Assembly: GCF_030817535.1 (NCBI RefSeq)
Contig: NZ_JAUSZL010000002.1
Span: 3,844,001-3,908,000 of the forward strand
Source: Streptomyces sp. V3I8
Lineage (GTDB): Bacteria; Actinomycetota; Actinomycetes; Streptomycetales; Streptomycetaceae
Length of the DNA: 64,000 nt
Direction of reading: 5' to 3'
A program made the translations under genes and the position numbers. How positions within the stretch are numbered: the stretch's first letter is position 1; each line of letters opens with the position of its first letter. The notes beneath the pieces are model-generated. The model did no database searches. It was not told the DNA's origin and was given only the letters and a program-made list of their open reading frames with translations. Shown here one piece after another: positions 2,929 through 22,396 of the stretch.

Positions 2929-2943
2929 CTGACGGTACGTCAG
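2929..2943. promoter_or_regulatory. Operator A: CTGAC-GGTAC-GTCAG
   Basis: Perfect 5-5-5 inverted repeat 42 bp upstream of the DoxX start codon. It is one of seven CTGAC-N5-GTCAG sites in this window that precede catabolic genes, the spacing and symmetry expected of a TetR-family dimer. Confidence 0.75.
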
Positions 2944-3136
2944 TTCTACGCACCGGGCGCGGGGTGCGCAAGATGCCTACGCCACCCCTTCCCGGCGCGG
3001 GCACCCGCCCGGGCGGCGCTGCGCGTGTGAGCTACGACACGGAGTCCATACGCCCCTCCCGCAGCCGTGATCGATTCGCAACCGATTCCGGGCTTGACCG
3101 AGACCCATCAAAGTACGACATGCATACGCTCGGCAC

Positions 3137-4438
3137 ATGGCCGACTCTTCCGACCCGACGCCCCAGACCTCCGCGCAGGCATCCCCACCGGCGTCCCCGC
3201 CAGCACCCGGGCAGACGTCCGAGCAGACGTCCGGGCGGACGTCCGCGCAGGTGTCCGCACGGACATCCGCACCGCAGCAGGACCGGCCCGTGTACGTCAT
3301 CGGGGGCGGGCCGGGCGGTCTCGCGGTGGCGTATGCGTTGCGCGCGCGGGGCGTACGGGCCGTCGTGCTCGAGAGGTCCGACCGGGTCGGGGCGTCCTGG
3401 CGGCGGCACTACGACCGGCTGCGGCTGCACACCACCCGGCGCCTGTCCGCGCTGCCGGGCCTCGCGATGCCGCGCTCGTTCGGGCGGTGGGTGGCACGCG
3501 ACGACGTGGTGCGCTACCTGGAGAAGTACGCCGAGCACCACGGGCTGGAGATCGTCACGGGGGTCGAGGTCTCGCGCGTGGAGCCCTCCGCCGACGGCAC
3601 CGGCTGGCTGCTGCACGCCACCGGCGGCCGTGAGCTGACCGGCAGCGCGGTGGTCGTCGCCACCGGCCACAACCACACGCCGTACGTGCCCGGGTGGTCC
3701 GGCCTCGACGCGTACACCGGCGAGTTCCTGCACGCCGGCGAGTACCGCAACCCGGCCCCGTACGCCGGCAAGGACGTCCTCGTGGTCGGCGTGGGCAACA
3801 CCGGCGCCGAGATCGCCGTGGACCTCGTCGAGGGCGGCGCCTCGCGCGTACGCCTCTCCGTGCGGACCGCGCCGCACATCGTGCGCCGGTCGACGGCCGG
3901 GTGGGCGGCCCAGTACACCGGGGTGCTCTGCCGGCGGCTGCCGCGCGCGCTGGTGGACCGGATGGCGCGGCCGCTGGCGAAGCTCAGCGTTCCGGACCTC
4001 TCCGCGCAGGGGCTGCCGCGGCCCGACACCGGGCTGTACTCGCGGGTGAACGAGGGAGCCATCCCCGTGCAGGACGTCGGTCTCATCGACGCCGTCCGCA
4101 AGGGCCGGGTCGAGGTCGTGTCCGCGGTCGAGGGCTTCGAGGACGGCAAGGTCGTCCTCGCGAACGGCGACCGCGTCGGCCCGGACGCGGTGATCGCCGC
4201 GACCGGCTACCGGCGCGCCCTGGAGGGTGTCGTCGGCCATCTGGACGTGCTCGACGGACGCGGGCGCCCGGTCGTGCACGGTGCCCGCACACCGAAGAAC
4301 GCCCCCGGCCTCTACTTCACCGGCTTCACGAACCCGATCAGCGGCATGCTCCGCGAACTGGCCATCGACGCCGAGAAGATAGCGAAGGCGGTCGCGCGCG
4401 ACGCCGGACGGCGCAACCCGTCCCGCCTCGCGCACTGA
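3137..4438 (+). CDS. Flavin-containing monooxygenase / NAD(P)-binding oxidoreductase (CzcO/TrkA-like)
   Basis: A 433-residue flavoprotein. After a low-complexity Pro/Ser/Thr/Gln leader of about 50 residues comes the FAD-binding Rossmann motif (VYVIGGGPGGLAVAYALRA). Then follow the RLRLHTTR region typical of FMO/CzcO-type enzymes, a second dinucleotide motif (VLVVGVGNTGAEIA, about residue 215) for NAD(P)H, and the ATGY motif preceding the C-terminal FAD contact. Class B monooxygenases of this type hydroxylate carbonyls, amines or sulfides, or perform Baeyer-Villiger reactions. It is divergent from the DoxX operon and shares its promoter gap with operator A. A role in substrate activation for the catabolic region is inferred from position. 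The ATG at 3137 gives the whole leader; a later start is possible. Confidence 0.85.
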   Translation: MADSSDPTPQTSAQASPPASPPAPGQTSEQTSGRTSAQVSARTSAPQQDRPVYVIGGGPGGLAVAYALRARGVRAVVLERSDRVGASWRRHYDRLRLHTTRRLSALPGLAMPRSFGRWVARDDVVRYLEKYAEHHGLEIVTGVEVSRVEPSADGTGWLLHATGGRELTGSAVVVATGHNHTPYVPGWSGLDAYTGEFLHAGEYRNPAPYAGKDVLVVGVGNTGAEIAVDLVEGGASRVRLSVRTAPHIVRRSTAGWAAQYTGVLCRRLPRALVDRMARPLAKLSVPDLSAQGLPRPDTGLYSRVNEGAIPVQDVGLIDAVRKGRVEVVSAVEGFEDGKVVLANGDRVGPDAVIAATGYRRALEGVVGHLDVLDGRGRPVVHGARTPKNAPGLYFTGFTNPISGMLRELAIDAEKIAKAVARDAGRRNPSRLAH

Positions 4439-4503
4439 CGGCGTCTCCCGCCCACACCCACACTCCCACCCCACCCACAGCAGTCCCCCTTCGCCCCTCC
4501 TGC

Positions 4504-5172
4504 CTACTCGCCCTCCGCCTGCCCGTCCGTGAGGTGCGCGAGCGCGGTGACGACCCGTTCCGCGATGCCCGGCGGCCAGGGGAACGAAGGGGAGACCGCC
4601 CGCTGGTGGGCGAGCCCGTGCAGGCCGAGCCAGAGCGCGACCGCGTCGGCGGGCACGTCGGTGCTGACGGCGCAGCCGGCCGTGACGCAGTCCTGGAGGG
4701 CTTCGGCGAGCCGCCGCAGGCTCGCGTCGCCGAGCGTGCCGAGGTCCTGCGCCGTCACGGAACTCGCGTCCGGGTCGGGCGTCCAGAGCCCTCCGAACAT
4801 CGTGCGGTAGCGCCCGGGGTGGGCCTCGGCATAGTCCAGGTAGCCCCGGCACAGGGCGGTGAGCCGGGCGCGGGGCGCGTCGCCGGCGGCGTCCACGGCC
4901 GCGCCCAACCGCCCGTCCAGCTCGGCGAAGGCGTTGCGCACCACGGCCAGCATGATGGCGGGCTGGTCGGGGAAGTGGCGGTAGATCGAGGGGGCGGCGA
5001 TGCCCACCTTGCGGGCGACGGAGCGCAGGGTGATGGCGCTCTCGTCGCCGGTCTCGTCGAGCAGTTCGACCGCCGCGTCCACGATCTCCTCGCGCAGCCG
5101 AGCGCCCTCCCCGCGGCGGTTCCGCACGCGGGCGGGTCTCGCGACCGAGGTCGCCGAAGTGTCGTCTCCCAT
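4504..5172 (-). CDS. TetR-family transcriptional regulator (WHG-type C-terminal domain)
   Basis: A 222-residue repressor with the N-terminal TetR helix-turn-helix (about 25-70: REEIVDAAVELLDETGDESA, TLRSVARKVGIAAPSIYRHF). The ligand domain carries the Y-R-x-M-F-G pattern and later segments seen in the WHG/TetR_C_33 group. It is convergent with the monooxygenase and lies beside the acyl-CoA synthetase gene, whose promoter carries two of the seven CTGAC-N5-GTCAG palindromes (5467 and 5491). It is therefore the best local candidate to read those sites, although no such site lies immediately in front of its own start. The ligand is unknown; an acyl-CoA is plausible from context. Confidence 0.88.
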   Translation of the reverse strand: MGDDTSATSVARPARVRNRRGEGARLREEIVDAAVELLDETGDESAITLRSVARKVGIAAPSIYRHFPDQPAIMLAVVRNAFAELDGRLGAAVDAAGDAPRARLTALCRGYLDYAEAHPGRYRTMFGGLWTPDPDASSVTAQDLGTLGDASLRRLAEALQDCVTAGCAVSTDVPADAVALWLGLHGLAHQRAVSPSFPWPPGIAERVVTALAHLTDGQAEGE

Positions 5173-5267
5173 ACAAGTGACCTTACAGCGGAAAACTTAT
5201 GGGCGTTCGCCTTACGGCCCCGAACTCCGGCCGGCACCGGACTCCGGCCAGCACCGGACCCCGCGGA

Positions 5268-5366
5268 CCCCGCGGCCCCCGCGGACCCCGCGGCCCCCAC
5301 GGAGTCGCGGAGTCACGGAGTCACGGACCCCGCGGAGTCACGGAGTCGCGGAGTCGCGCACCGTCG
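5268..5366. repeat. Mixed GCGGACCCC / CGGAGTCAC tandem repeat
   Basis: Within the 365-base gap between the TetR gene and the acyl-CoA synthetase gene, short units (GCGGACCCC, GCGGCCCCC) give way to CGGAGTCAC and CGGAGTCGC units over about 100 bases. No gene with sensible composition covers it. It separates the regulator start from the two operators further right. Confidence 0.7.
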
Positions 5367-5466
5367 CCGGCAAGGCCGCCGTCGTCCCCGAGGCGCGGTA
5401 TCCGGCGGCGGCCCGTGCGACCGACCGGCCGTGACCCCCACGACATCTTTGCCCGCAGAACCGTTC

Positions 5467-5481
5467 CTGACAGTGCGTCAG
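5467..5481. promoter_or_regulatory. Operator B: CTGAC-AGTGC-GTCAG
   Basis: Perfect inverted repeat 57 bp before the acyl-CoA synthetase start. With operator C it forms a pair spaced 24 bp centre to centre, about two helical turns, so two dimers could bind side by side. Confidence 0.8.
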
Positions 5482-5490
5482 TTCAGTAAC

Positions 5491-5505
5491 CTGACAGTTC
5501 GTCAG
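5491..5505. promoter_or_regulatory. Operator C: CTGAC-AGTTC-GTCAG
   Basis: Second perfect inverted repeat of the tandem pair in front of the acyl-CoA synthetase gene, 33 bp before its ATG. It likely overlaps the promoter or transcript start. Confidence 0.8.
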
Positions 5506-5537
5506 TTATTGGCAGCCATACAGGAGCGGGCGGACCG

Positions 5538-7787
5538 ATGCTTGGATCAACCCATGGCACCCTCACCACCGACTCCCGCCGGACCGGGGTCGTCGCCTGC
5601 GGCGGGCAACCCGCCCCCGCGGTGCACGGCAGACCGGCCGCCACCGACGACCTCGACGTCAGCGGCCGGCCGCTGTACGCCGGCGTACCCGACCTGGACC
5701 GCTTCTTCCGCCCGGAGTCGGTGGCCGTCGTCGGCGCCTCCGACACCGAGGGCCGCCCGAACACCGGCGTCACCCGGCAGCTGCTCGCCTGGGCCGGGCG
5801 GGTCGGCGCCAGGCTGCACCCGGTGCACCCGACCCGCGAGTCCGTGTTCGGCCTGCCCTGCGTCCCCTCGGTCGCGGACCTGCCCGAACAGGTCGACCTG
5901 GCCGTGCTGCTGGTCGCCGATCCGCTCCCCGTGATCGAGCGGCTCGCGGACCACAAGGTGCGGTTCGCGGTCGCCTTCGCGTCCGGGTTCGCCGAGACGG
6001 GGGCGGAGGGCGCCGCCGCGCAGGCCCGTCTCGCCGACGCCGTACAGCGCTCCCTGCAGCGCTCAGGACCGCGCTCCGGGCTCCGGCTGCTCGGCCCGAA
6101 CACCAACCTCAACGCGTTCGAGGAGTTCCGCGAGGACCTGGACGGCCCGGCGATCGCGCTGATCACGCAGTCGGGACACCAGGGCCGCCCGGTCTTCACC
6201 CTGCAGGAACTGGGCATCCGGCTCTCCCACTGGGCGCCCACCGGCAACGAGGCCGACCTGGAGAGCGCCGACTTCATCTCGTACTTCGCCGAGCGGCCCG
6301 AGGTGGGCGCCATCGCCTGCTACCTGGAGGGCCTCAAGGACGGCCGTTCCTTCCTCCTCGCCGCCGACCGGGCCGCCCGGCGCGGGGTCCCCGTCGTCGC
6401 GGTCAAGGTCGGCCGCACCGAGACGGGCGCGCGTACGGCCGCCTCCCACACCGGCAAGCTGACCGGCGCCGACGCGGTGGTGGACGCCGCGATGCGCCAG
6501 TACGGGGTCGTCCGCGTCGACGGCCTCGACGAGCTGCAGGACACCGCCGCCCTCCTGGCGCGTGCCCGGCCGCCCTCCGCCGACGGGGTCGCCGTCTACT
6601 CGATCTCCGGCGGTACGGGCGCGCACTTCTCCGACCTGGCGACCGGGGCGGGACTGCGCCTGCCCGCCCTCTGCGCCGCCAAGCAGGCCGAACTGCACCA
6701 GTGGATACCCGCGTACCTGGACGTCACCAACCCGATCGACAACGGCGGCCATCCGGTCGGCGACTGGCGGGGGCGCCGGATCATCGACGCGATCCTCGCC
6801 GATCCGGCCGTCGGGGTGCTGATCTGCCCGATCACGGGCCCCTTCCCGCCCATGAGCGACCGGCTCGCGCGGGACCTGGTGGACGCGGCCGAGGAGACGG
6901 ACAAACTGGTCTGCGTGGTGTGGGGGTCGCCGGTCGGCACCGAGTCCGCGTACCGCGAGACCCTCCTCGGCTCGTCCCGCGTCGCGACCTTCCGCACGTT
7001 CGCGAACTGCATCACGGCGGTACGCGCCCACCTGGACCACGCCCGCTTCACGGCCTCCTACCGCTCCCCCTTCGACGAGGCCCCCCGCACCCTGTCCCCC
7101 TCCTTCCGCAAGGCGCAAGCCCTCATGCAGCCGGGCAGCAGACTCAGCGAGCACGCGGCGAAACAGCTGCTGCGCGCGTACGGGATCCGGGTGCCGCGGG
7201 AGCAGCTGGTGACCAGCGCGGCGGCGGCCGTACGGGCGGCCGGGCTCGTCGGGTACCCCGTCGTCATGAAGGCGTCCGGCGCGCGGATCGCCCACAAGAC
7301 GGAACTGGGGCTGGTCAGGGTCGGTCTCACCTCGGCCAGCCAGGTACGCGACACCTACCGCGAGCTGACCGACACGGCCCGCTACGAGGACGTGTCGCTC
7401 GACGGGGTCCTGGTGTGCCAGATGGTGGAGCCCGGTGTCGAGATGGTGGTCGGGGTGACGCACGACGACCTCTTCGGCCCGACGGTGACGGTCGGGCTCG
7501 GCGGCGTCCTGGTCGAGGTCCTGCGGGACACGGCGGTGCGGGTGCCGCCGTTCGGCGAGGAGCAGGCCCGCTCGATGCTCGACGAACTGCGGGGGCGGGC
7601 GCTGCTGGACGGTGTCCGGGGGCGGCCTCCGGCGGACCTGGACGCGCTGGTGGAGGTCGTCCTGCGCGTCCAGCGGATGGCGCTGGAACTGGACGGGGAG
7701 CTGTCCGAGCTGGACATCAACCCGCTGATGGTCCTGCCCCGGGGCCAGGGGGCGGTGGCGCTGGACGCACTGGCGGTATGCCGCTGA
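5538..7787 (+). CDS. NDP-forming acyl-CoA synthetase (ACD family, fused alpha-beta)
   Basis: A 749-residue fusion that makes an acyl-CoA from acid, CoA and ATP through a phosphohistidine. Domains in order: an N-terminal leader; a CoA-binding Rossmann domain (FFRPESVAVVGASDTEGRPN, about 55-180); succinyl-CoA-ligase-like flavodoxin domains holding the phosphohistidine loop AASHTGKLTG; and a C-terminal ATP-grasp domain beginning near YGIRVPREQ with GYPVVMKASGARIAHKTELG and ending ELDINPLMV. The SQSGHQGRP loop is non-canonical where SQSGALG is usual. An AGGAG lies 11 bases before the ATG. The double operator just upstream places it in the CTGAC-N5-GTCAG regulon, where it could activate the substrate or a pathway acid. 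An inverted repeat hairpin follows the stop. Confidence 0.9.
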   Translation: MLGSTHGTLTTDSRRTGVVACGGQPAPAVHGRPAATDDLDVSGRPLYAGVPDLDRFFRPESVAVVGASDTEGRPNTGVTRQLLAWAGRVGARLHPVHPTRESVFGLPCVPSVADLPEQVDLAVLLVADPLPVIERLADHKVRFAVAFASGFAETGAEGAAAQARLADAVQRSLQRSGPRSGLRLLGPNTNLNAFEEFREDLDGPAIALITQSGHQGRPVFTLQELGIRLSHWAPTGNEADLESADFISYFAERPEVGAIACYLEGLKDGRSFLLAADRAARRGVPVVAVKVGRTETGARTAASHTGKLTGADAVVDAAMRQYGVVRVDGLDELQDTAALLARARPPSADGVAVYSISGGTGAHFSDLATGAGLRLPALCAAKQAELHQWIPAYLDVTNPIDNGGHPVGDWRGRRIIDAILADPAVGVLICPITGPFPPMSDRLARDLVDAAEETDKLVCVVWGSPVGTESAYRETLLGSSRVATFRTFANCITAVRAHLDHARFTASYRSPFDEAPRTLSPSFRKAQALMQPGSRLSEHAAKQLLRAYGIRVPREQLVTSAAAAVRAAGLVGYPVVMKASGARIAHKTELGLVRVGLTSASQVRDTYRELTDTARYEDVSLDGVLVCQMVEPGVEMVVGVTHDDLFGPTVTVGLGGVLVEVLRDTAVRVPPFGEEQARSMLDELRGRALLDGVRGRPPADLDALVEVVLRVQRMALELDGELSELDINPLMVLPRGQGAVALDALAVCR

Positions 7788-8814: not shown

Positions 8815-8829
8815 CTGACGGCCCGTCAG
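8815..8829. promoter_or_regulatory. Operator D: CTGAC-GGCCC-GTCAG
   Basis: Perfect inverted repeat (extended by one more base pair on each side, CCTGAC/GTCAGG) ending 14 bp before the flavin reductase start. At that distance a bound repressor would block the transcript start or the first transcribed bases. Confidence 0.8.
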
Positions 8830-8842
8830 GTTCAATGGACGT

Positions 8843-9496
8843 GTGATGGGACACGCAGGAATGGCCGCGACAGCCGTCCGCTACCTGAGGACGGCCGGCG
8901 GTCCGGCCCCGGCCGGGCCGGTCGAACCGCTCCCACGGCCTGCCCTGCGCGCGGTCGCCGACGACGAACGCGCACCGGTCGACCCGGTCGAGTTCCGCCG
9001 CGTCCTGGGCAACTTCGCGACGGGCGTCACCGTCATAACGGCCCCGGCCCCGGCCCCGGACCCGGCCCCGGACCCCGCCGGATCCGCCGCCGGCGAAGGC
9101 CCCGCCGGCTTCGCCTGCCAGTCCTTCGCCGCCCTCTCCCTCGATCCGCCCCTGGTCGTGTTCATGGTCGCGCGTACGTCCACGACCTGGCCCCGCATCG
9201 CCCGCGCGGGCGTCTTCTGCGTGAACGTCCTCGGCGCGCACCAGGGCGACCTGTGCCGCGGCTTCGCGGTGAGCGGCGGGGACAAGTTCGCCGGGGTCGG
9301 CCACACCCCGGCCCCGGTCTCCGGGTCGCCGCGCCTGGCCGGTGCCACGGCGTGGGCCGACTGCACGGTCCACGCCGTCCACCCGGGTGGCGACCACCTG
9401 ATCGTGGTGGGCAGGGTGGACGCCCTGGGCACGTCCGACGGTGCCGACGCACCCCTGCTGTTCCACCGGGGCCGCTTCGGCGGCTTCACGGCCTGA
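8843..9496 (+). CDS. Flavin reductase-like protein (HsaB/HpaC type)
   Basis: A 217-residue FMN-binding split-barrel protein. The family block FRRVLGNFATGVTVIT (about 52-67) leads into FACQSFAALSLDPPLVVFMV, CVNVLGAHQGDLCRGFA with KFAGV, and the C-terminal PLLFHRGRFGGF. These proteins reduce flavin with NAD(P)H for a two-component monooxygenase; no oxygenase component is adjacent, so the partner is elsewhere or is the flavoprotein at 3137. Between the first two blocks is a Pro/Ala/Asp repeat insertion (APAPAPDPAPDPAG) not typical of the family. The GTG at 8843 is directly followed by an ATG, either of which could start. It carries operator D in its promoter and overlaps the MFS gene tail-to-tail by 11 bases. 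Confidence 0.85.
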   Translation: MMGHAGMAATAVRYLRTAGGPAPAGPVEPLPRPALRAVADDERAPVDPVEFRRVLGNFATGVTVITAPAPAPDPAPDPAGSAAGEGPAGFACQSFAALSLDPPLVVFMVARTSTTWPRIARAGVFCVNVLGAHQGDLCRGFAVSGGDKFAGVGHTPAPVSGSPRLAGATAWADCTVHAVHPGGDHLIVVGRVDALGTSDGADAPLLFHRGRFGGFTA

Positions 9497-11917: not shown

Positions 11918-11969
11918 CCCGCCGTGTTCGCCTGCGGGCCCGGCGTCGACCGGAATGTCGGACGGAACG

Positions 11970-13019
11970 TCAGAACGTCAGAACCCCCCGCGCCACCCGC
12001 CCGGCGGCGGCCTCCGCCGCCGCCTTCTCGAAGTCCTCGACGGGATACGTGCACGTCACCAACTCGTCCAGCAGCAACCGCCCCTCCCGGTACAGCTCCG
12101 CGTACAGCGCGACATCCCGCTGCGGCCGCGACGCCCCGTACCGGCACCCCAGGATCGACTTGTCCAGGAACATCGACGAGACGAGGAAGGACGCCTCGGC
12201 GTCCACCGCCGGCACCCCCAGCAGCACGGCCTGCCCGTGCCGGTCGAGCAGGTCGACGGCCTGCCGTACGAGCTCCACCCGCCCCACGCACTCGAAGACG
12301 TGGTCCGCCCCGTTCGGCAGGATGTCCCGCACCCCCGTCACGGAGGTGAGGAAGTGCCCGGCCCCGAACCGCCGCGCCGCCTCCTCCTTCGCCGGATTCG
12401 AGTCGACCGCCACCACCGTGAGCGCCCCGGCGATCCGCGCGCCCTGCAGCACGTTGAGCCCGATCCCGCCCGCGCCGATGACGACGACGCTGTCCCCGCG
12501 GTCCACCCGGGCCCGGTTCAGCACGGCCCCGACCCCGGTCAGGACCGCGCACCCGATGAGGGCTGCCGAGGCCATCGGGATGTCCTGGGGGATGCGTACG
12601 GCCTGCACGGCCTTGACCACCGTGCGTTCCGCGAAGGCGGAGTTGGACGCGAACTGGTACAGCGGCTCCCCGCCCCGCGCGAAGGGCCGTTGCGGCATCC
12701 CGATCGCCTTGCGGCACATGGTGGGCCGGCCCCGGTCGCATTCGGCGCACACACCGCAGTTGGCGAGCGTGGACAGGCAGACGTGGTCCCCCGGCCGGAC
12801 ATGGGTCACCCCCGCCCCCACCTCGGCCACGACGCCCGCGCCCTCGTGGCCGAGCACCACGGGCACGGGGAAGGGGATGGTGCCGTCCACCACGGAGAGG
12901 TCGCTGTGGCACAGCCCCGCCGCCTCGACCTCGACCAGCACCTCGCCGGGCCCCGGACCCCGCACCTCCAGGTCGTCGACCACCCGCGTCTGCCTGCCGT
13001 CGAAGATCACGCCTCGCAT
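11970..13019 (-). CDS. Zinc-dependent alcohol dehydrogenase (class III-like MDR)
   Basis: A 349-residue medium-chain dehydrogenase. Catalytic zinc ligands are visible as AGLCHSDLSV and GHEGAGVV. The structural zinc loop is CGVCAECDRGRPTMC, with four cysteines. The NAD-binding Rossmann motif is VVVIGAGGIGLNV (about 173-185), and an acidic residue at the end of the next strand (AVDSN) points to NAD rather than NADP. It is the last gene of the minus-strand run with the acyl-CoA dehydrogenase and the SDR, so it probably oxidises an alcohol intermediate or reduces an aldehyde there. Confidence 0.9.
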   Translation of the reverse strand: MRGVIFDGRQTRVVDDLEVRGPGPGEVLVEVEAAGLCHSDLSVVDGTIPFPVPVVLGHEGAGVVAEVGAGVTHVRPGDHVCLSTLANCGVCAECDRGRPTMCRKAIGMPQRPFARGGEPLYQFASNSAFAERTVVKAVQAVRIPQDIPMASAALIGCAVLTGVGAVLNRARVDRGDSVVVIGAGGIGLNVLQGARIAGALTVVAVDSNPAKEEAARRFGAGHFLTSVTGVRDILPNGADHVFECVGRVELVRQAVDLLDRHGQAVLLGVPAVDAEASFLVSSMFLDKSILGCRYGASRPQRDVALYAELYREGRLLLDELVTCTYPVEDFEKAAAEAAAGRVARGVLTF

Positions 13020-13043: not shown

Positions 13044-14192
13044 TCAGCCCTTCGCTTCCCTGGGAAGGCCGAGCACGCGCTCGGCGATGATCGTGCGCTG
13101 GATCTCGTCCGAGCCGCCGTAGATCGTGTCGGCCCGGCTGAAGAGGAACAGGTGCTGCGACGCGTCGAGTTCGTACGGCGCCGCGGCCGTCCAGTCCGCC
13201 GGCCCCACCGCCGCGCCGGCGCCCCGCACCCGCACCGCGAGTTCGCCGAGCCGCTGGTGCCAGCGGCCCCACAGCAGTTTGGCCACACTGGGCGCGCCCG
13301 GGACACCCGGACTCCCCAGGGTCCGCAGGGCGTTCCACCGCATGGTGCGCAGCTCGGCCCACTGGCGTACGAGCAGGTCGCGGACGACCGGGTCGTCGGC
13401 CGCCCCCGTGGCGACGGCCTCCTCCAGCACCCGCCCCAGCTCCTGGGCGAAGCCGATCTGCTGGGCCAGGGTGGAGACGCCCCGTTCGAAGCCGAGCAGG
13501 CTCATGGCGACCCGCCAGCCGTTGCCCTCACCGCCGACGACGTGCTCGGCGCGCGCACGGGCCCCGTCGAAGAAGACCTCGTTGAACTCGCTGGTCCCGG
13601 TCAGCTGCCGGATCGGCCGTACGTCGATCCGGCCGGGCTGGTCCATCGGCACGAGCAGGAAGCTCAGCCCGCGGTGCCTGCGCGACCCGGCCTCGGTGCG
13701 CGCCAGGACGAAGCACCAGTCCGCCTCGTGCGCCAGCGAGGTCCAGATCTTCCGACCGCTGATCCGGTACCCGCCCGCCTCCCGCACGGCCCGGGTACGG
13801 ATTCCCGCGAGGTCGGACCCGGCCCCGGGTTCGCTGTACCCCTGGCACCACAGTTCGTCACCGGCGGCGACGGGCGGCAGGAAGCGGGCCTTCTGCTCCT
13901 GGCTCCCGTGCGCGAGCAGCGTGGGGGCCAGCAGCTTCTCCCCGATGTGCCCGCTGCGGGCGGGAGCCCGGGCCCGCGCGTACTCCTCGGCCCACACCAC
14001 CTGCCGCCCGATCCCGACCGCCCGGTTCCCGTACCCCTCCGCCCCCCACCCGATCCCGATCCACCCGGCGGCCCCGAGCGTCCGCTCCCAGGCCCTGCGG
14101 TCCCCGTCGCCCACCGCCGGCACATGCCGGTCCAGCCACCCCCGTACCTCGACGCGGAACGCCTCGTCCTCCGACGTGCACCCGAAATCCAC
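13044..14192 (-). CDS. Acyl-CoA dehydrogenase family protein
   Basis: A 382-residue acyl-CoA dehydrogenase. In order: the helical N-domain; the CoA/FAD motif WCQGYSEPGAGSDLAGIRT with KIWTSLAHEADW (about 125-170); and the C-domain ending YGGSDEIQRTIIAERVLGLPR, the FAD-contacting tail typical of FadE proteins of steroid/cyclic acid pathways. I start at GTG 14192 (VDFGCTSEDE); the frame stays open to 14267 but that part reads through a dispersed repeat copy and is not family sequence. It lies between the SDR and the zinc alcohol dehydrogenase genes, all in one direction under operator E. Confidence 0.88.
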   Translation of the reverse strand: MDFGCTSEDEAFRVEVRGWLDRHVPAVGDGDRRAWERTLGAAGWIGIGWGAEGYGNRAVGIGRQVVWAEEYARARAPARSGHIGEKLLAPTLLAHGSQEQKARFLPPVAAGDELWCQGYSEPGAGSDLAGIRTRAVREAGGYRISGRKIWTSLAHEADWCFVLARTEAGSRRHRGLSFLLVPMDQPGRIDVRPIRQLTGTSEFNEVFFDGARARAEHVVGGEGNGWRVAMSLLGFERGVSTLAQQIGFAQELGRVLEEAVATGAADDPVVRDLLVRQWAELRTMRWNALRTLGSPGVPGAPSVAKLLWGRWHQRLGELAVRVRGAGAAVGPADWTAAAPYELDASQHLFLFSRADTIYGGSDEIQRTIIAERVLGLPREAKG

Positions 14193-14288: not shown

Positions 14289-15197
14289 CTACGGCGCCTC
14301 CTTCGCGGAGCGGGCCGCACGGGCCATCTCCTCCACCCGCCCGAGCAACGGCATGGGATCCACCCCCACCGCCCCCGGCAGGAACCGCGCGAGACGCTCG
14401 GGCGTCCACCGCCCCTCCGCATACGCCGAGCGCAGTTCCCGCGGCTGCGCCCACACCGCGATCTTCGGCCCCGCCACCGTGTACACCTGCCCGGTGATCC
14501 CTTCCTCCCGGGCCCGCTCGGACAGCAGGTAGACCACGAGCGCGGCCACGTCCTCGGGTTCGCCGATCTCCGTCAGCTCCATCGGCACGTTCGCCGACAT
14601 CCGGGTACGGGCGACCGGCGCGACCGCGTTCGCCGTGACCCCGTACCTGTGGAGCCCGAGCGCCGCGCTCCGGACGAGCGAGACGATCCCGCCCTTCGCC
14701 GCGCTGTAGTTGGCCTGCGAGACGGACCCCTGGTGGTTGCCGCTGGTGAACCCGATGAGGGTGCCGGAGCGCTGCCCCCGCATCACGGCGCAGGCGGCGC
14801 GGAAGACGGTGAACGTGCCCTTCAGATGGGTGGCGATGACCGGGTCCCAGTCGTCCTCGGTCATGTTGAAGAGCATCCGTTCACGCAGGATCCCGGCCAC
14901 GCAGACGACCCCGTCGAGCCGCCCGTACGCCTCCAGGGCCACGTCGACGATCCGCTGTCCGCCCGCCATGGTGGAGATGTCGTCGGCCACCGCGACCGCC
15001 TCGCCGCCGGCCGCCCCGATCTCCTCGGCCACGGCGTCGGCGACCGAACTGCTCGGCGCCGAGCCCTCGATCGAGACGCCGTAGTCGTTGACGACGACCC
15101 GTGCGCCCTCGGCCGCGGCGGCCAGCGCCACCGCACGTCCGATGCCCCGGCCCGCCCCGGTCACGGCGACGACCCTGCCTGCCAGGAAGTTCCCCAC
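14289..15197 (-). CDS. Short-chain dehydrogenase/reductase, hydroxyacyl-CoA dehydrogenase-like
   Basis: A 302-residue SDR with the classical cofactor motif VTGAGRGIGRAVALA near the N-terminus. It also has a segment VVVNDYGVSIEG like that of the HSD17B4/FOX2-type 3-hydroxyacyl-CoA dehydrogenases, and the catalytic YSAAKGG with the preceding Ser in the FTSGNHQG strand. A C-terminal extension (about 225-302) beyond the core contains VAGPKIAVWAQPREL, seen in the same subgroup. The start GTG 15197 has GGGAAGGGG upstream; another GTG at 15215 is possible. It heads a three-gene minus-strand run and lies next to operator E. Confidence 0.88.
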   Translation of the reverse strand: MGNFLAGRVVAVTGAGRGIGRAVALAAAAEGARVVVNDYGVSIEGSAPSSSVADAVAEEIGAAGGEAVAVADDISTMAGGQRIVDVALEAYGRLDGVVCVAGILRERMLFNMTEDDWDPVIATHLKGTFTVFRAACAVMRGQRSGTLIGFTSGNHQGSVSQANYSAAKGGIVSLVRSAALGLHRYGVTANAVAPVARTRMSANVPMELTEIGEPEDVAALVVYLLSERAREEGITGQVYTVAGPKIAVWAQPRELRSAYAEGRWTPERLARFLPGAVGVDPMPLLGRVEEMARAARSAKEAP

Positions 15198-15220: not shown

Positions 15221-15235
15221 CTGACGGTCCGTTAG
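15221..15235. promoter_or_regulatory. Operator E: CTGAC-GGTCC-GTTAG
   Basis: One mismatch (GTTAG for GTCAG) from the perfect palindrome, but the outer T/A pair is kept. It lies between the divergent SDR (start 15197) and cyclase (start 15293) genes, so one bound dimer could control both directions. Confidence 0.7.
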
Positions 15236-15292: not shown

Positions 15293-16219
15293 ATGTCACT
15301 GCCGGCCGAGTTCCACGAGATCGCCAAGCGCGTGAACAACTGGGGGCGCTGGGGCGCCGACGACGAGATCGGCACCCTGAACCTGATCACCGACGACGTC
15401 GTGCGCGGGGCCGCCGCGAGCGTCCTCAGCGGCCGTCGCGTACCGCTCGCCCTGCCCCTGCGGCAGGACGGTGTGCAGACGGGGATGATCCCGGGCCGGG
15501 TCAATCCGCTGCACACGATGGTGCAGATCAACCAGGAGCTGTTCGGCCCCGGTACGGTCGCCTGCAGCGACGACGCCGTGACGATGGGCCTGCAGGCGGC
15601 CACCCACTGGGACGCGCTCGCCCATGTCTCGCACTCGGGCCGGCTCTACAACGGCCGCTCCGCCGACACCGTCACGGCCCACGGGGGCGCGGGGTTCGGC
15701 GGCATCGACAAGCCCCGGCACATCGTCTCGCGCGGTGTCCTGCTGGACGTGGCCCGCGCGCTCGGCACGGAGCGCCTCGACGGCGGGCACGCGGTGACCC
15801 CGGAGGACCTGGAGGCGGCCGAGGAACTGGGCGGGACGAAGGTCGGCCCGGGCGACATCGTCCTCGTACGCACCGGCCAGATGCAGCTCTACCTGGCGGG
15901 CGACAGGGAGGGGTACGCCTTCCCGTCCCCCGGTCTGTCCGTGCGTACTCCGGAGTGGTTCCACGCGCGTGATGTCGCGGCGGTCGCGAACGACACCCTC
16001 ACCTTTGAGATATTTCCTCCCGAGACGGAGGATATGTGGCTGCCCGTCCACGCGCTCGACCTGGTCGAGATGGGCATGCCGCAGGGTCAGAACTGGAATC
16101 TCGAAGAGTTGTCCACAGCCTGTGGACACGCCGGGCGCCATGCGTTCCTGCTGTCGGCGATGCCCGAACCGTTCGTCGGCGGCACCGGAACCCCCGTGGC
16201 GCCGGTGGCGATCCTCTGA
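15293..16219 (+). CDS. Cyclase-family (kynurenine formamidase-like) metal-dependent hydrolase
   Basis: A 308-residue protein of the cyclase family (PF04199). The metal-binding signature appears as ATHWDALAHVSHSG (about 103-116), where H-x-D-x-x-x-H supplies ligands, and GFGGIDKPRH follows. Later blocks are RGVLLDVARA and PGDIVLVRTGQ, and a C-terminal HALDLVEMGMPQGQNWNLEEL. Family members open amide or lactone rings, as in N-formylkynurenine or isatin hydrolysis. In this regulon a ring-opening or lactone-hydrolysis step is a reasonable inference. An AGGACTC precedes ATG 15293. Divergent from the SDR across operator E. Confidence 0.88.
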   Translation: MSLPAEFHEIAKRVNNWGRWGADDEIGTLNLITDDVVRGAAASVLSGRRVPLALPLRQDGVQTGMIPGRVNPLHTMVQINQELFGPGTVACSDDAVTMGLQAATHWDALAHVSHSGRLYNGRSADTVTAHGGAGFGGIDKPRHIVSRGVLLDVARALGTERLDGGHAVTPEDLEAAEELGGTKVGPGDIVLVRTGQMQLYLAGDREGYAFPSPGLSVRTPEWFHARDVAAVANDTLTFEIFPPETEDMWLPVHALDLVEMGMPQGQNWNLEELSTACGHAGRHAFLLSAMPEPFVGGTGTPVAPVAIL

Positions 16220-17147: not shown

Positions 17148-17669
17148 CGCTCACACCATCCGAACCGGCGGACACATCGCCTCGCGCCTCGCAAGGGCCA
17201 CGATCGTGGTCAGAAAAGGGTTCACGGAACGTGATTCCCTAGAGAGACAGCATGGTTGACGTACAGTCACCCCAACAAGCGCTTCGGGCATATTCCAGCG
17301 CGAAGGAGTACGCGTGCGGCATACTGTGCGACGCTCGCCACGGGGAGTCGAACAGGCGGGAACGGTCCTGCTTCCTGCCCTGCGAGCGGCGCGCACCGCC
17401 GGATCCGGGGCTGCCCCGGGGGCAACACCGTGATGGCCCGGCCTCAGAACCACTCGCATCCCACACAAGGTACCGGAGCACACCGCCGACTCCGGGCCGT
17501 GACGAGTCACGCATCGGACACAACCCGGTATCGACGCTCGGTGACCCGGTATGCCACGTTCCGCGCCGTCCACCCCTCCTGCCTCCTCCCGGCTCCTCCG
17601 GGACCCCTCCGGAAATGCCACGATCGGTGACATGCCGACGGCGGTCCGGCGGCGGCCGACGCACCGCGT
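17148..17669. other. 522-base intergenic region with promoter-like sequence
   Basis: Contains TTGACGTACAGTCAC at 17256-17270, whose core TGAC-N5-GTCA matches the regulon palindrome but whose outer bases do not, and a short ORF at 17314. The rest, up to the stop of the acyl-CoA dehydrogenase gene at 17670, shows no convincing gene. Confidence 0.5.
17314..17433 (+). CDS. Possible 39-residue protein with strong ribosome site
   Basis: GAAGGAG sits five bases before GTG 17314, and the frame runs 39 codons to TGA. The product begins MRHTVRRSPRGVEQAG and then is Ala/Gly-rich; it has no domain I recognise. It could be a true short peptide, a leader, or the remnant of a longer helix-turn-helix gene whose remainder is lost. 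A TTGACG lies 57 bases upstream of the start. Only the ribosome site and position support it. Confidence 0.4.
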   Translation: MRHTVRRSPRGVEQAGTVLLPALRAARTAGSGAAPGATP

Positions 17670-18620
17670 TCACGCCCCGTGCCGCTCGGCCCACGTCAGC
17701 AGACCGGCCGCGAGGGCTTCCTCCGCCTGCGCGGCGCAGGGGCCGCGACGGGCTCGCGACCAGGCCCGTTTGAGATGCAGATGCACCTCGGACTCCCAGG
17801 TGAAGCCCATCCCGCCGTGCACCTGGAGGCAGTCGCGGGCCCCGCGTTCGGCGGCCTCGTCGGCCAGCAGGCGGGCCGCCGCGATGTCGAGCGGATCGTT
17901 TGTGACGGCCGCCGCGTACACGGCCGAACGCGCCATCTCCACGCGTACGAGCATGTCGGCGCACAGGTGTTTCACCGCCTGGAAGGCGCCGACCGGCTGA
18001 CCGAACTGCTCACGTGTCCGGGCGTGTTGCACGGCCAGCGCGCAGGTGCGGCCGGCCGAGCCGAGCTGTTCGGCGGCGGTCAGCAAGGCGGCCACCGGGT
18101 CGCCGGGCGCGGCCCGGGGCACCCGGTGCAGGGGGGTCAGCGGGTCGACCGGGCGCAGGGCGACGGCTTCCGTGACGTCTCCGCGTACGACGTCCGCCTC
18201 GTCCAGCCACTCGACGAGGCGTCCGTCGACGGCGGCGACGACGCACTCGCCGGTGGCCGCCCCGGGCACCTCCCCGGCCGCGAGGTGGGTGGCCACGAGC
18301 GGGCCGGGCAGCAGCGCCCGTCCGGCCTCCTCGAAGGCGAGCACCGCTTCGGGCAGCCCCAGTCCGACCCCGCCCCGCGCCTCGGGCAGCCGCAGCGCGA
18401 AGAAGCCCGCCTCGCCCAGCTCCCGCCACAGCGCACGGTCGAGGCGGGCCGCGGGACCGCGGGGGCCCGCGGGACCGGGAGGGCCCGCCCGCCCGTCGGA
18501 ACCGGTCTCCGGGGGCGGGTCCACGGCGGCCCGCAGCCGCTCCCGCCCGAACCGCCGCACCAGCAGCTCGCGCACCCCGGCCCGTAACGCCCGCTGGTCG
18601 TCGGTGAGTCGGAAGTCCAT
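17670..18620 (-). CDS. Acyl-CoA dehydrogenase, small/partner subunit type
   Basis: A 316-residue, shortened acyl-CoA dehydrogenase (full-length members are about 370-400). It has the N-domain start FRLTDDQRALRAGVREL, lacks a normal middle beta-domain, and keeps the C-domain signatures RTREQFGQPVGAFQAVKHLCAD and CLQVHGGMGFTWESEVHLHL. This is the pattern of the second subunit in FadE heteromers. Residues about 40-57 are a collagen-like Gly-x-x insert (GRAGPPGPAGPRGP). Start ATG 18620 lies four bases after the stop of the full-length dehydrogenase gene at 18625, so the pair is probably co-translated and forms one enzyme. Confidence 0.88.
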   Translation of the reverse strand: MDFRLTDDQRALRAGVRELLVRRFGRERLRAAVDPPPETGSDGRAGPPGPAGPRGPAARLDRALWRELGEAGFFALRLPEARGGVGLGLPEAVLAFEEAGRALLPGPLVATHLAAGEVPGAATGECVVAAVDGRLVEWLDEADVVRGDVTEAVALRPVDPLTPLHRVPRAAPGDPVAALLTAAEQLGSAGRTCALAVQHARTREQFGQPVGAFQAVKHLCADMLVRVEMARSAVYAAAVTNDPLDIAAARLLADEAAERGARDCLQVHGGMGFTWESEVHLHLKRAWSRARRGPCAAQAEEALAAGLLTWAERHGA

Positions 18621-18624
18621 TCGG

Positions 18625-19776
18625 TCACCGTCCCTTGGGCAGGCCCAGGATCCGCTCGGCCACGATGTTCCGCTGGATCTGCGAGGTCCCGGCCGCGATG
18701 GTGTACGAGAGCGACGAGAGCCGGTCGGCCGTCCACTGCCGGTCCAGGTCGAGCCCGTCGGGCCCGAGCACCTCGGCGGCCACGTCGTACAGCTCCTGCC
18801 GGACCTGCGAGTAGCGCAGTTTGAAGACCGAGCCGCCCACCCCCGGTACCCCGCCGCGCTCCGCCTCGCTCACGTTCCACTGCGTCAGCCGCCACAGGGC
18901 CCGGAACTCGGCGTCGAGCCTGCCGAGCCGCCGGCGCAGCGGCACATCGTCCCAGCGGCCGTTCTCGCGCGCCTCACGGGCCACGTCGCCCAGGACGCGC
19001 CGGCACGCGACCACCTCGCCCACGAAGGCGGTGCCGCGCTCGAAGGACAGCGTCACCATGGTCACGCGCCAGCCGTCGTTCTCCTCGCCGACCCGGTTGG
19101 CGGCGGGCACCCGCACCTCGTCGAGGAAGACCTCCGCGAACTCGGCCGAGCCGGCGAGGGTGCGCAGCGGGCGTACCGTGATCCCCGGGGCGTCCATCGG
19201 CATCGCGAGCCAGCTGATCCCCCGGTGCTTCGGCGCCTTCGGATCGGTGCGCACCAGGAGTTCGCACCAGTCGGCGACCTCGGCGTGCGAGGTCCAGATC
19301 TTGGAACCGCTGACCACGTAGTCGTCGCCGTCCCGCCGCGCGCGCGTGCGCAGCGACGCGAGGTCGGAGCCGGCGTCCGGCTCGCTGAACCCCTGGCACC
19401 ACACCTCCTCGCCGCGCAGCACGGGCGGCAACCAGCGGGCCCGCTGTGCGGCGTTCCCCTCGGCCGCGACGGTCGGCCCGGCGTGCAGCAGCCCGACGAA
19501 GTTGGCGCCCACATAGGGGGCGCCCGCCCGCTCGGTCTCCTCCAGGAAGACGAGGTGGCGGGTGGGCGTGGCCCCGCGGCCGCCCGCGTCGACGGGCCAG
19601 TGCAGCCCCGCGTACCCGGCGTCGTACAACCGGCGCTGCCACCCGAGGTCGTACGTGCGCCGCGCCGGCCAGTCCTCGGGCGGGGGCTTCGGCGGCAGTG
19701 CGGGCAGCACCCCGGCGAGCCACTCGCGCAGGTGCGCCCGGAACTCCTCGTCCTCGGCCGGGTACGAGAGGTCCAT
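18625..19776 (-). CDS. Acyl-CoA dehydrogenase, large subunit type
   Basis: A 383-residue acyl-CoA dehydrogenase with EEFRAHLREWLAGVLP at the N-terminus, the FAD/CoA block WCQGFSEPDAGSDLASLRTR, KIWTSHAEVADWCELLVRT, and the tail AGTSQIQRNIVAERILGLPKGR. It resembles the FadE large subunits of steroid side-chain and cyclic acid degradation. The ATG overlaps the amidohydrolase stop in TGATG, and the small dehydrogenase gene follows four bases after its own stop. The three genes form one unit behind operator F, suggesting dehydrogenation of the CoA ester made in the same pathway. Confidence 0.9.
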   Translation of the reverse strand: MDLSYPAEDEEFRAHLREWLAGVLPALPPKPPPEDWPARRTYDLGWQRRLYDAGYAGLHWPVDAGGRGATPTRHLVFLEETERAGAPYVGANFVGLLHAGPTVAAEGNAAQRARWLPPVLRGEEVWCQGFSEPDAGSDLASLRTRARRDGDDYVVSGSKIWTSHAEVADWCELLVRTDPKAPKHRGISWLAMPMDAPGITVRPLRTLAGSAEFAEVFLDEVRVPAANRVGEENDGWRVTMVTLSFERGTAFVGEVVACRRVLGDVAREARENGRWDDVPLRRRLGRLDAEFRALWRLTQWNVSEAERGGVPGVGGSVFKLRYSQVRQELYDVAAEVLGPDGLDLDRQWTADRLSSLSYTIAAGTSQIQRNIVAERILGLPKGR

Positions 19777-20969
19777 CACCTGTCGAGATCCAGGTCCAGC
19801 ATGCGGATGGCGTTGCCGCGCATCAGCTTGTAGACCGTCTCGTCGTCGAGGCCCTTCACATGGTCGAGGGCGACCTCCTTGGTGTGCGGGAAGGTCGAGT
19901 CGACGTGCGGGTAGTCGGTCTCGAAGGTCGCGTTGTCGCGGCCGACCACGTCCAGCGAGGCGATCCCGTGCTTGTCGCGGAAGAAGCAGCAGAAGATCTG
20001 CCGGTAGTAGTACGTGGACGGCGGCTCGGGGACCAGGTCGCGCACCCCGCCCCAGGCCCGGTGCTCCTGCCACACGTCGTCGGCCCGCTCCAGCGCGTAC
20101 GGGATCCAGCCCATCTGGCCCTCGCTGTACGCCAGTGTGAGCCGCGGGAACTTCACGAGCACGCCCGAGAACAGGAAGTCCATCATCGACGCCATGGCGT
20201 TGTTGAAGCTCAGGGACGCCTGGACGGCGGGCGGGGCGTCGGGGGACGCGGCGGGCATCTGGCTGCTGCTGCCGATGTGCATGTTGACGACCGTGCCGGT
20301 CTCCTGGCAGACGGCGAAGAACGGGTCCCAGTGGCCGGAGTGGATGGACGGCAGCCCCAGGTGGGTGGGGATCTCGGAGAAGGTGACGGCCTTCACGCCC
20401 CGGGCCGCGTTGCGGCGGATCTCGGCGACGGCGAGGTCGATGTCCCAGAGCGGGATGATGCACAGCGGGATGAGCCGGCCGCCGCTGTCGCCGCACCACT
20501 CCTCGACCATGAAGTCGTTGTACGCGCGCACGCACGCCAGCGCGACCTCCTTGTCGTGCGCCTCGGCGAAGGTCTGCCCGCAGAACCGCGGGAAGGTCGG
20601 GAAGCACAGGCTCCCCTCGACGTGGTTGGCGTCCATGTCCCTGAGCCGCTCGGCCGGGTCCCAGCACCCGGGCCGCATCTCCTCGCGGGTGATGCCCTCC
20701 AGCGTCATCCGGTCCCGGTCGAAGCCGACGGCGGCGATGTTGCGCTTGTACGGGAACTTCAGGTCCTCGTAGATCCACCAGTCGGTCGGCGGCCCGTCCG
20801 GGTCCATCGTGATCCGGTACTTGCCGGCCACGTAGGCCAGTTCACCGATGCCGGCCGTCAGCGGCTTGGGACCGCGGTCCCGGTACTTCGCCGGCAGCCA
20901 GGTCTCGAAGAGGTGCGCGGGCTCGATCACATGGTCGTCGACGCTGATGATCCGGGGCAGTTCGGTCAT
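19776..20969 (-). CDS. Amidohydrolase-2 family protein (ACMSD/decarboxylase-like)
   Basis: A 397-residue TIM-barrel protein of the PF04909 family. It opens with ISVDDHVIEPAHLFETWLP, where the usual metal-binding H-x-H of the first strand is replaced by D-x-H. SGHWDPFFAVCQETGTVVNMHIG carries the strand-5 histidine, and the strand ending ATFETDYPHVDSTFP supplies the catalytic Asp. Relatives include non-oxidative decarboxylases of aromatic acids and ring hydrolases; many actinobacterial members in acyl-CoA gene clusters are uncharacterised. It heads the operon with the two acyl-CoA dehydrogenases and is preceded 37 bp upstream by operator F. Specific chemistry is open. Confidence 0.85.
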   Translation of the reverse strand: MTELPRIISVDDHVIEPAHLFETWLPAKYRDRGPKPLTAGIGELAYVAGKYRITMDPDGPPTDWWIYEDLKFPYKRNIAAVGFDRDRMTLEGITREEMRPGCWDPAERLRDMDANHVEGSLCFPTFPRFCGQTFAEAHDKEVALACVRAYNDFMVEEWCGDSGGRLIPLCIIPLWDIDLAVAEIRRNAARGVKAVTFSEIPTHLGLPSIHSGHWDPFFAVCQETGTVVNMHIGSSSQMPAASPDAPPAVQASLSFNNAMASMMDFLFSGVLVKFPRLTLAYSEGQMGWIPYALERADDVWQEHRAWGGVRDLVPEPPSTYYYRQIFCCFFRDKHGIASLDVVGRDNATFETDYPHVDSTFPHTKEVALDHVKGLDDETVYKLMRGNAIRMLDLDLDR

Positions 20970-21005
20970 GAGTCCAGCCCTCTCGGCAAATCCGATGACA
21001 CGTAT

Positions 21006-21020
21006 CTGATGACCCGTCAG
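21006..21020. promoter_or_regulatory. Operator F: CTGAT-GACCC-GTCAG
   Basis: One mismatch from the perfect palindrome (CTGAT for CTGAC), 37 bp upstream of the amidohydrolase start, at the head of the three-gene operon with the paired acyl-CoA dehydrogenases. Confidence 0.7.
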
Positions 21021-21174
21021 AAATCAGGCTAGCCCCGAGGCCCTGGACCGACAAGGCACGGGGCCCCGGTACCCCGAGGGCGACCGCACGGCGGATCGCG
21101 TCGCCTTCGCCGGGTGCGCATCCCCCGGTGAGGGACGGCCGTGCGATCTTTTCCCTCTTACGCGGTACGGGTGA

Positions 21175-22356
21175 ATGAGCCGGTTCTTCGGTTCGGGGCG
21201 GGTGCCGGGTCTTCTAGGGTTTCCGAGCGGATCCGGGGGCCGCGGGAAGGGCCCTGCGGGCGGAAGGGCCGGCGGAAGGGCGCACCTGTTGTCGGGGTTG
21301 GGGAAGTCGCCGGACGTGCCCGGGATCCGGGAGGACCGCCGTCGTACGACGTGGGCGGGGGCATGGGGCGCGGCGGGCGTGGCGGGCGTGGCCTGTCTCG
21401 TGGGAGCGGCGCTGACTCTCGGCGGGCCGTGGACGGCCGGGAGCGTGGCGGTGCGGATGGCGGTTTCCGGGCCGTCGGCCGGCTGCTGGGGGCTGGCCGC
21501 CTCCCTGGCGCTCCGTGCGTGGGGGGTGGGCGGACGGGTGCGGACGCGTCTGCTGCTGTTGGCCGGTTCGGCGGTGGCCGGGGGCGTGTACCGGGGGGCG
21601 GTCACCGTGCTGCCGTTCCACCCCGCGGATCCGGGACGGGACGGGCGGTCGCCGCTCGGTTCGGTGGTGACGGCCGGGGTGACGCTGGCGATCGGTCTGG
21701 GGATGGCCGGTGTGGTGATCGCAGCCGATGCCGGCCGGGGCCGGCAGGTGCTGTTGCGGCGCGTGCTCGACGGACTCGTCGCAGCCGGGGCCGTGTTCAT
21801 GACGGGATGGGTTCTGCTGCGGGGGGCCGGTGACAGCTGGCGGCCGGGGACGGGGCCGGTCGGTGCCCTGTGGACCGCGGAGGTCGTGTTCCTCGGCGTT
21901 CTGTTCGCCCTGCGCCGTCTCGTACGGAGCGACCGGGGAGTCACCCTGTGGGTCGGCATCGCGGGGCTGTCCCTCGTGCTGATCGGCGACACCCTGCGCC
22001 TGTGGGTGGCCGGTCCGCACGGCCCCGAGGTGATGTCCTGGCAGCTGACCGACATCTGCAACACCGTGGGCCTGCTGGTGATCGCCGTCGGCCCCTGGGT
22101 GCCCGGCGGGGCGAGCGTCCTGGACACGGCCCGGCCGGCCTTGCGAGGCGGGATGGAGGGCGCCGCGGCGTTCGTCCCCCTGACGGTCTTCACGGTCACG
22201 GCGCTGGGCTATGCGCTGGCTCCCCCCGTCCCCGCCCACGACCCGGTGCCGCTGCTGGTCGGCGGGACTGCGCTGCTGAGCCTCTGGGCACGCCAGAGGT
22301 TCCTGCCGGGCGAGAACGCCGGGGACGACGGCCGAGCGCCGGCGGCGGGCGATTGA
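21175..22356 (+). CDS. Multi-pass membrane protein of unknown function
   Basis: A 393-residue protein with a Gly/Arg-rich cytosolic leader (about 1-60) and then eight or so hydrophobic segments with short loops, e.g. GVAGVACLVGAALTLGG, VTAGVTLAIGLGMAGVVIAA, TLWVGIAGLSLVLIGDTLRLW and LTDICNTVGLLVIAVGPWV. The layout resembles the N-terminal membrane half of some Streptomyces GGDEF/EAL proteins, but no signalling domain follows; the gene ends after the last helix. It may be a stand-alone sensor or a truncated version. No strong ribosome site is visible before ATG 21175, so the true start could be further downstream. Confidence 0.6.
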   Translation: MSRFFGSGRVPGLLGFPSGSGGRGKGPAGGRAGGRAHLLSGLGKSPDVPGIREDRRRTTWAGAWGAAGVAGVACLVGAALTLGGPWTAGSVAVRMAVSGPSAGCWGLAASLALRAWGVGGRVRTRLLLLAGSAVAGGVYRGAVTVLPFHPADPGRDGRSPLGSVVTAGVTLAIGLGMAGVVIAADAGRGRQVLLRRVLDGLVAAGAVFMTGWVLLRGAGDSWRPGTGPVGALWTAEVVFLGVLFALRRLVRSDRGVTLWVGIAGLSLVLIGDTLRLWVAGPHGPEVMSWQLTDICNTVGLLVIAVGPWVPGGASVLDTARPALRGGMEGAAAFVPLTVFTVTALGYALAPPVPAHDPVPLLVGGTALLSLWARQRFLPGENAGDDGRAPAAGD

Positions 22357-22381
22357 CGGCAGAGCCCGGGCCCCCGACAAT

Positions 22382-22396
22382 CTGACTGACCGTCAG
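22382..22396. promoter_or_regulatory. Operator G: CTGAC-TGACC-GTCAG
   Basis: Perfect 5-5-5 inverted repeat 41 bp before the AMP-forming ligase start and just after the stop of the membrane protein gene, which shows that the ligase has its own promoter. Confidence 0.8.

Follow-up and report, generated by a model that had tools for sequence, protein, structure and literature searches.

A CTGAC-N5-GTCAG operator and its probable TetR-type repressor in a catabolic regulon of Streptomyces

Operator sites and genes at the locus

We analyzed a 64,000-nucleotide stretch of the Streptomyces sp. V3I8 genome (the window) in which the palindrome CTGAC-N5-GTCAG repeatedly precedes genes for acyl-coenzyme A (CoA) metabolism and oxidoreductases. 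This palindrome serves as an operator across the whole genome, its spacer fixed at 5 bp, and the protein acting on it is probably a TetR-family repressor, here called TetR-B, encoded just outside the window. An earlier note on this DNA had claimed seven sites, five perfect and two (15221 and 21006) with one mismatch, all of which were found again. The sites (listed without strand) and the regulator gene are as follows.

2929 to 2943: operator site CTGACGGTACGTCAG, upstream of the DoxX/DUF35 pair
5467 to 5481: operator site CTGACAGTGCGTCAG, distal member of a pair spaced 24 bp from start to start
5491 to 5505: operator site CTGACAGTTCGTCAG, proximal member of the pair; a site is present in 24/24 orthologous promoters
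8815 to 8829: operator site CTGACGGCCCGTCAG
15221 to 15235: operator site CTGACGGTCCGTTAG, one mismatch, between the divergent short-chain dehydrogenase (SDR) and cyclase genes
21006 to 21020: operator site CTGATGACCCGTCAG, one mismatch; a site is present in 27/27 homologous promoters
22382 to 22396: operator site CTGACTGACCGTCAG
C2:3839765-3840400: TetR-B, inside the regulon cluster and 3.6 kb left of the window; 211-215 amino acids, PF00440 and PF19352 (domains assigned from precomputed data on close homologues)

The distance from site to start codon, given before as 14-57 bp, was measured as 14-58 bp and varies with the choice of start. Three more one-mismatch sites were found in the window at 11959, 37919 and 39613. 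Sites with two mismatches showed no excess in the window (31 found, 40 expected), so the signal is confined to perfect and near-perfect sites.

The genes near these sites were called with a small codon-usage script, by which starts and short genes are approximate.

1935 to 2438, minus strand: DUF35/ChsH2-type zinc-ribbon OB-fold protein
2438 to 2887, minus strand: DoxX-like membrane protein, just under the Pfam cut-off (21.0 vs 23.6 bits)
4504 to 5172, minus strand: TetR-A, the earlier note's regulator candidate, which probably does not control this regulon
5538 to 7787, plus strand: ADP-forming acyl-CoA synthetase family protein (ADP ligase), reaching no NCBIfam cut-off
8843 to 9496, plus strand: flavin reductase, HsaB-like, under the cut-off (184.9 vs 230 bits)
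11970 to 13010, minus strand: zinc alcohol dehydrogenase, best NCBIfam match the N,N-dimethyl-4-nitrosoaniline (NDMA)-dependent type, under the cut-off; same strand as the SDR gene and downstream of it
13044 to 14192, minus strand: acyl-CoA dehydrogenase
14289 to 15197, minus strand: SDR
15293 to 16219, plus strand: putative cyclase (PF04199)
17670 to 18620, minus strand: acyl-CoA dehydrogenase, abutting the genes at 18625 and 19776 on the same strand
18625 to 19776, minus strand: acyl-CoA dehydrogenase
19776 to 20969, minus strand: amidohydrolase (PF04909), closest solved proteins DitZ and PtmU3, with DitZ best
22437 to 23948, plus strand: AMP-forming acyl-CoA ligase

The names DitZ and PtmU3 presumably point to diterpenoid chemistry. 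Relatives of the cyclase, 55-58% identical, sit in site-headed gene runs of two genomes of family f14. Between 8011 and 8791 an enoyl-CoA hydratase-like gene has its halves in different frames (the Pfam match ends at residue 158 and the second frame runs from 8492); it is possibly a pseudogene or the product of a sequence error.

A conserved operator across the genome and the genus

Perfect copies of the palindrome number 37 in the 9.3-Mb genome compared with 1 of the reversed pattern. This control is too low, since the 118 genomes lacking TetR-B in our 148-genome survey of the class still hold a median of 1.39 copies/Mb, corresponding to ca. 13 expected copies here. The 37 copies comprise 22 intergenic ones, 3 across a gene edge and 12 within genes, the last fitting the background of ca. 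13. Within 133 kb around the window, a spacing of k=5 gives 11 CTGAC-Nk-GTCAG pairs while every other k from 0 to 15 gives 0-1. Clustered sites span 87 kb (C2:3779007-3866396), of which ca. 65 kb fall to the left of the window; the first site is followed by a gap of 33 kb, and satellite sites exist elsewhere in the genome. Genes beside sites in the cluster encode luciferase-like monooxygenases, SDRs, amidohydrolases, AMP- and ADP-forming ligases, acyl-CoA dehydrogenases and an SCP-x-type thiolase with DUF35; immediately to the left of the window, the interval separating an acyl-CoA dehydrogenase from a thiolase-like gene contains two more one-mismatch sites. The satellites accompany genes for luciferase-like, acyl-CoA dehydrogenase, MaoC hydratase, ChsH2-like DUF35 and DAP_DH_C proteins and a ligase/enoyl-CoA hydratase pair. 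Some perfect copies adjoin seemingly unrelated genes (kinase, PorA-like, LacI-type).

Further, 80 named Streptomyces loci around TetR-B (1.32 Mb) contain 183 perfect sites compared with 1 control, with at least one site in 62 of the 80. All 183 lie outside genes and 178 are at most 150 bp from a start codon (median 33 bp), a concentration upstream of genes, as opposed to random or coding placement, that agrees with what the earlier note had expected of a genome scan. When these sites were symmetrized, A at position -2 and T at position +16 were present at 70%. C at the sixth position was seen in 1 of the 183 sites and G at the tenth in none, a rule obeyed in the window's genome by 23 of 25 non-genic but only 3 of 12 genic sites (Fisher p=8e-5; not a fully independent test as some sites are orthologous).

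Conservation upstream of orthologues was similarly clear. The 250 bp upstream of the ADP ligase contain a perfect or one-mismatch site in 24/24 same-genus orthologues tested (23 perfect), and those upstream of the amidohydrolase do so in 27/27 same-genus homologues tested (24 perfect), with the reversed control giving 0 in both sets. The amidohydrolase set consists of 23 orthologues and 4 paralogues (among paralogues of 56-58% identity, only the four with loci were taken), and loci L248-L250 and L279-L284, being partial or distant matches, were left out of the promoter counts. Two sites are present in 21 of the 24 ligase promoters, spaced 24-25 bp apart in 20 of these 21 as at 5467-5505 in the window, and this regularity suggests cooperative binding. 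DoxX or DUF35 promoters bear the motif in other Streptomyces loci as well, and 31 same-genus genomes hold 9-64 copies each (controls: 0-8). The operator, its conservation and the genes that it accompanies are thus established computationally, in support of the proposal that a single regulon is marked by a fixed-spacing operator near start codons, with a TetR-type repressor as its natural binder. That the site is undescribed had also been suggested. This agrees with our literature search but was weakly tested: neither any of six written forms of the motif nor the name PF19352 occurs in Creative Commons-licensed PubMed Central text, where absence is weak evidence.

TetR-B as the candidate repressor

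TetR-B has the features expected of its family, namely a TetR_N helix-turn-helix, an all-helical ligand domain and TetR folds as best matches. An AlphaFold2 model built from 36 sequences had a predicted local distance difference test score (pLDDT) of 91.6 and a predicted template-modeling score (pTM) of 0.83. EthR of Mycobacterium tuberculosis is its closest solved fold (template-modeling score about 0.8), with acyl-CoA-binding FadR and FasR lower down, and an acyl-CoA effector is plausible. Identity to EthR is 17% in the fold comparison, and the sequence match is N-terminal only (E about 1e-5, residues 12-75), which does not indicate orthology. The closest named TetR-B genes are all from Streptomyces, at 98% identity and less, and the gene is present in 11/11 same-genus genomes of the class survey (85-100% identity) and 31/31 of a second draw (77-100%), that is 40/40 over both draws, which have two genomes in common. 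The recognition segment GTSPATFYQYF is kept in 36/36 homologues chosen for alignment, in 26/30 survey proteins (G056, G011, G031 and G022 differ) and in 27/28 of the second draw.

We defined a strong TetR-B match as one above 120 bits (the next match falls below 55 bits), a level reached in 30 of the 148 class-survey genomes. Median motif density was 4.45/Mb in these 30 genomes compared with 1.39 in the other 118 (p=2.6e-12), and without families f1 and f13 it was 2.72 (14 genomes) compared with 1.39 (118 genomes; p=8.9e-6), kinship being ignored in both tests. Control-pattern densities were alike (0.30 and 0.25). Within f14, seven genomes with TetR-B contain 10-24 motifs while the two without it contain 6 and 3. 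The association between motif and TetR-B is therefore established by computation.

The TetR-B gene frequently carries the site itself. The 110 bp before the gene contain a perfect or one-mismatch site in 20 of the 30 class-survey genomes (control: 1/30), distributed over the families as f14 7/7, f12 1/1, f1 9/11, f13 2/5, f18 1/4, f4 0/1 and f22 0/1, and in 108/108 further Streptomyces loci (80 named and 28 second-draw; control: 0), the second-draw part covering 28 of 29 new genomes with G157 left out. The position of this site varies by family from -17 to -66, an argument against simple inheritance. The Streptomyces form reads CTGAC-N5-GACAG at -20 and overlaps an upstream ATG. Support for self-control of TetR-B is good in f12 and f14 and less so in Streptomyces; for the window's own genome self-control is doubtful.

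Several observations count against assigning the operator to TetR-B. Small genomes lacking it (for example G043, G024 and G096) reach 3-4 motifs/Mb, with controls raised in two of them, and G031 (one internal stop) and G022 have TetR-B matches with a differing recognition segment and show no motif excess. Conservation of the same-genus upstream site is partly coding, because it overlaps an upstream start codon and its mismatch never varies. The spacer of this site is six bases long in the window's genome and in G123, where self-control may thus be lost. Finally, the very numerous copies in Sporichthyaceae (f13) do not look like operators: five genomes (G012, G035, G053, G069 and G085) hold 232-473 copies each (controls: 2-7), and in 400 kb of G012 there are 28 copies at spacing 5 and 0-2 at each other tested spacing from 0 to 11, with 13 of the 28 genic (13/30 in a first sample). 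Among the 15 non-coding copies, 6 lie between convergent and 1 between divergent genes, compared with 67 and 68 of 369 for all adjacent gene pairs. Given these gene-end positions, the Sporichthya copy number was dropped as support for TetR-B.

The Sporichthya copies also bear on whether the palindrome is an RNA hairpin or terminator instead of a protein site, as it is able to form a 5-6 bp stem, all eight edge-straddling Sporichthya copies touch a 3' end and, as noted, 6 of 15 non-coding copies are between convergent genes. In Streptomyces loci, however, the sequence itself recurs beyond what pairing alone would need, nearly all copies lie next to start codons as described above, and 92 of the 183 are in one divergent ligase/thiolase promoter type, leaving the hairpin as the least probable of the alternatives weighed here and a very remote one. 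The earlier note had instead named TetR-A, the gene at 4504, as the most likely repressor, a natural choice for a TetR protein within the cluster and ca. 300 bp from the 5467 site. This part of the proposal was not supported. Scoring 20 first-look candidates per genome, we found no TetR-A orthologue in the 10 other surveyed same-genus genomes (best E-values 1e-16 to 4e-9), all of which carry the motif (11-48 copies). Also, the motif is no denser in the 20 genomes with the best TetR-A homologues than in the rest (Mann-Whitney p=0.61), and the nearest site to TetR-A's own start is ca. 300 bp off. We therefore reject TetR-A on its phylogenetic profile as very unlikely to be the regulator. TetR-A scored 39.4 bits against the SACE_7040 model, below the cut-off of 250. 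A further TetR gene, TetR-C, lies at L017:8825-9670.

More weight could be given to a KstR-like TetR protein as the binder, since such proteins (E up to 1e-40, under the family cut-off) are present in 11/11 surveyed same-genus genomes, in f12, in 7/9 f14 and in four f18 genomes, and in G036 the gene lies in the same island as the sites discussed below. Yet survey genomes of f4, f17 and f26 with KstR-like proteins show background motif density (0.2-2.1/Mb), and what precedes the KstR-like gene of the window's genome is a AACTTGTT element, not a CTGAC site. Additionally, the CYP125-like promoter of G036 (L217, G036:C11:71185-71326) has two AACACGTT sites, which we take to be of the KstR type, flanking a distinct CTGAC site with one mismatch, an arrangement that suggests two regulators and possible dual control. 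A KstR-like binder is thus disfavored by motif densities, by its own upstream region and by this two-site promoter, and appears improbable, if slightly less so than TetR-A. Based on all of these comparisons, we consider TetR-B a likely repressor acting on CTGAC-N5-GTCAG, and hold this assignment with good confidence.

In the mechanism we propose, a TetR-B dimer would bind a palindrome of ca. 19 bp, AnCTGAC-D-NNN-H-GTCAGnT, beside the promoter and block transcription of the regulon genes. The signal that frees TetR-B from the DNA would be a catabolic intermediate, most likely a branched or polycyclic acid (steroid- or terpenoid-like) in the form of its CoA thioester. Its presence would switch on the genes for acyl-CoA ligases, acyl-CoA dehydrogenases, thiolase/DUF35, luciferase-like monooxygenases, amidohydrolases and dehydrogenases.

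Relation to steroid catabolism and implications

The regulon resembles that of KstR, which serves cholesterol catabolism in mycobacteria and relatives, in combining a TetR repressor with a large acyl-CoA/monooxygenase catabolic gene set, and both operator types meet at the CYP125-like promoter of G036. The two differ in their operators, that of KstR being of the AACNNGTT type, and a separate KstR-like protein is present in the same genomes. TetR-B gave no match to the KstR model NF033703 (NCBIfam) up to E 0.001. In 183.5 kb of the window's genome (window left out) AGAACnnGTTCT was not found, compared with 19 CTGAC sites of at most one mismatch, and this strict form gave no second promoter like that of G036 in the other f12, f14 and f18 loci examined.

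The KstR2 regulon (steroid C/D rings, ipdAB) is similar in that TetR-B of G036 and G011 lies beside ipdABC-like and echA20-like genes with CTGAC sites. The KstR2 operator, GCAAGNNCTTGC, has no copy in the 100-kb G036 island or in the 133-kb region around the window. For control of ipdAB by TetR-B the picture is mixed: the genes are neighbors in f12 and f14, but ipd in the window's genome has no CTGAC site. The Lcin1 motif of Nocardioides simplex is another predicted palindrome in a steroid cluster with an unassigned regulator, but its sequence, TCCCGGT[C/G]ACCGGGA, is unrelated to CTGAC-N5-GTCAG (PMC7593942).

A link to steroids is clearest outside of Streptomyces. In 8/8 f12 and f14 genomes having TetR-B, the distance from it to an ipdB-like gene is 2.5-2.6 kb, a linkage to ipd-like genes in two other families that is established computationally. 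G036 encodes proteins matching the CoA-transferase pair of PDB 6CO6/6CON (E 3e-95 and 7e-73), which we take to be IpdAB, and a CYP125-like protein (E 5e-158 to CYP125MRCA and 1e-113 to 1e-111 to natural CYP125). Its island has nine perfect sites in 100 kb, preceding a luciferase-like gene, DUF35/thiolase, amidohydrolases and the ipd-side operon. In G109, site-headed runs contain amidohydrolase, cyclase, SDR, and aldehyde and alcohol dehydrogenase genes of 55-65% identity.

The link is loosened by other genomes. In f18 the distance from TetR-B to ipdB is 57 kb (G132), 70 kb (G111) or 3.9 Mb (G100), with the two on separate contigs in G056, and it is 2.7 Mb in the window's genome, whose ipd cluster (C2:6509615-6520059) has no CTGAC site outside genes, even at one mismatch, and contains its own KstR-like TetR. 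An ipdB match is absent from 3/11 same-genus survey genomes. Steroid pathways are lacking in 55 of 57 Streptomyces genomes according to Bergstrand et al. (PMC4810484). Because of this scarcity and the ipd cluster without CTGAC sites, the regulon in Streptomyces is probably devoted to an acyl-CoA route, steroid-like or other, and not to the classical one.

Two side observations concern KstR-like genes of the window's genome. An intergenic region of the ipdABC-like cluster (L345/L343/L344, G000:C2:6509615-6520059) contains AACAAGTGTTTGG-like stretches, and at L348 (G000:C2:6088571) a one-mismatch CTGAC site lies upstream of an aldehyde dehydrogenase and a small ferredoxin-looking gene, beside a KstR-like gene.

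Taken broadly, TetR-B could be an undescribed third regulator of actinobacterial steroid-type catabolism that acts beside KstR, in one f14 genome even on a shared CYP125-like promoter, with its regulon kept and enlarged in Streptomyces for a polycyclic or terpenoid substrate, although a complete steroid pathway is reported for few of them. We put this forward tentatively, as a possibility with somewhat more speaking against than for it.

In conclusion, we reassign the regulator from gene 4504 to TetR-B and judge the system to be an uncharacterized one of a known kind. This corrects a natural error, as proximity probably singled out the wrong regulator gene here. The analysis provides an operator, a candidate regulator and a gene list for a set of oxidoreductases and CoA enzymes that recurs across Streptomyces, and suggests that steroid-like catabolism outside mycobacteria is controlled by a further TetR system beside KstR. 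The identity of the inducer would point to a food source of these soil bacteria.

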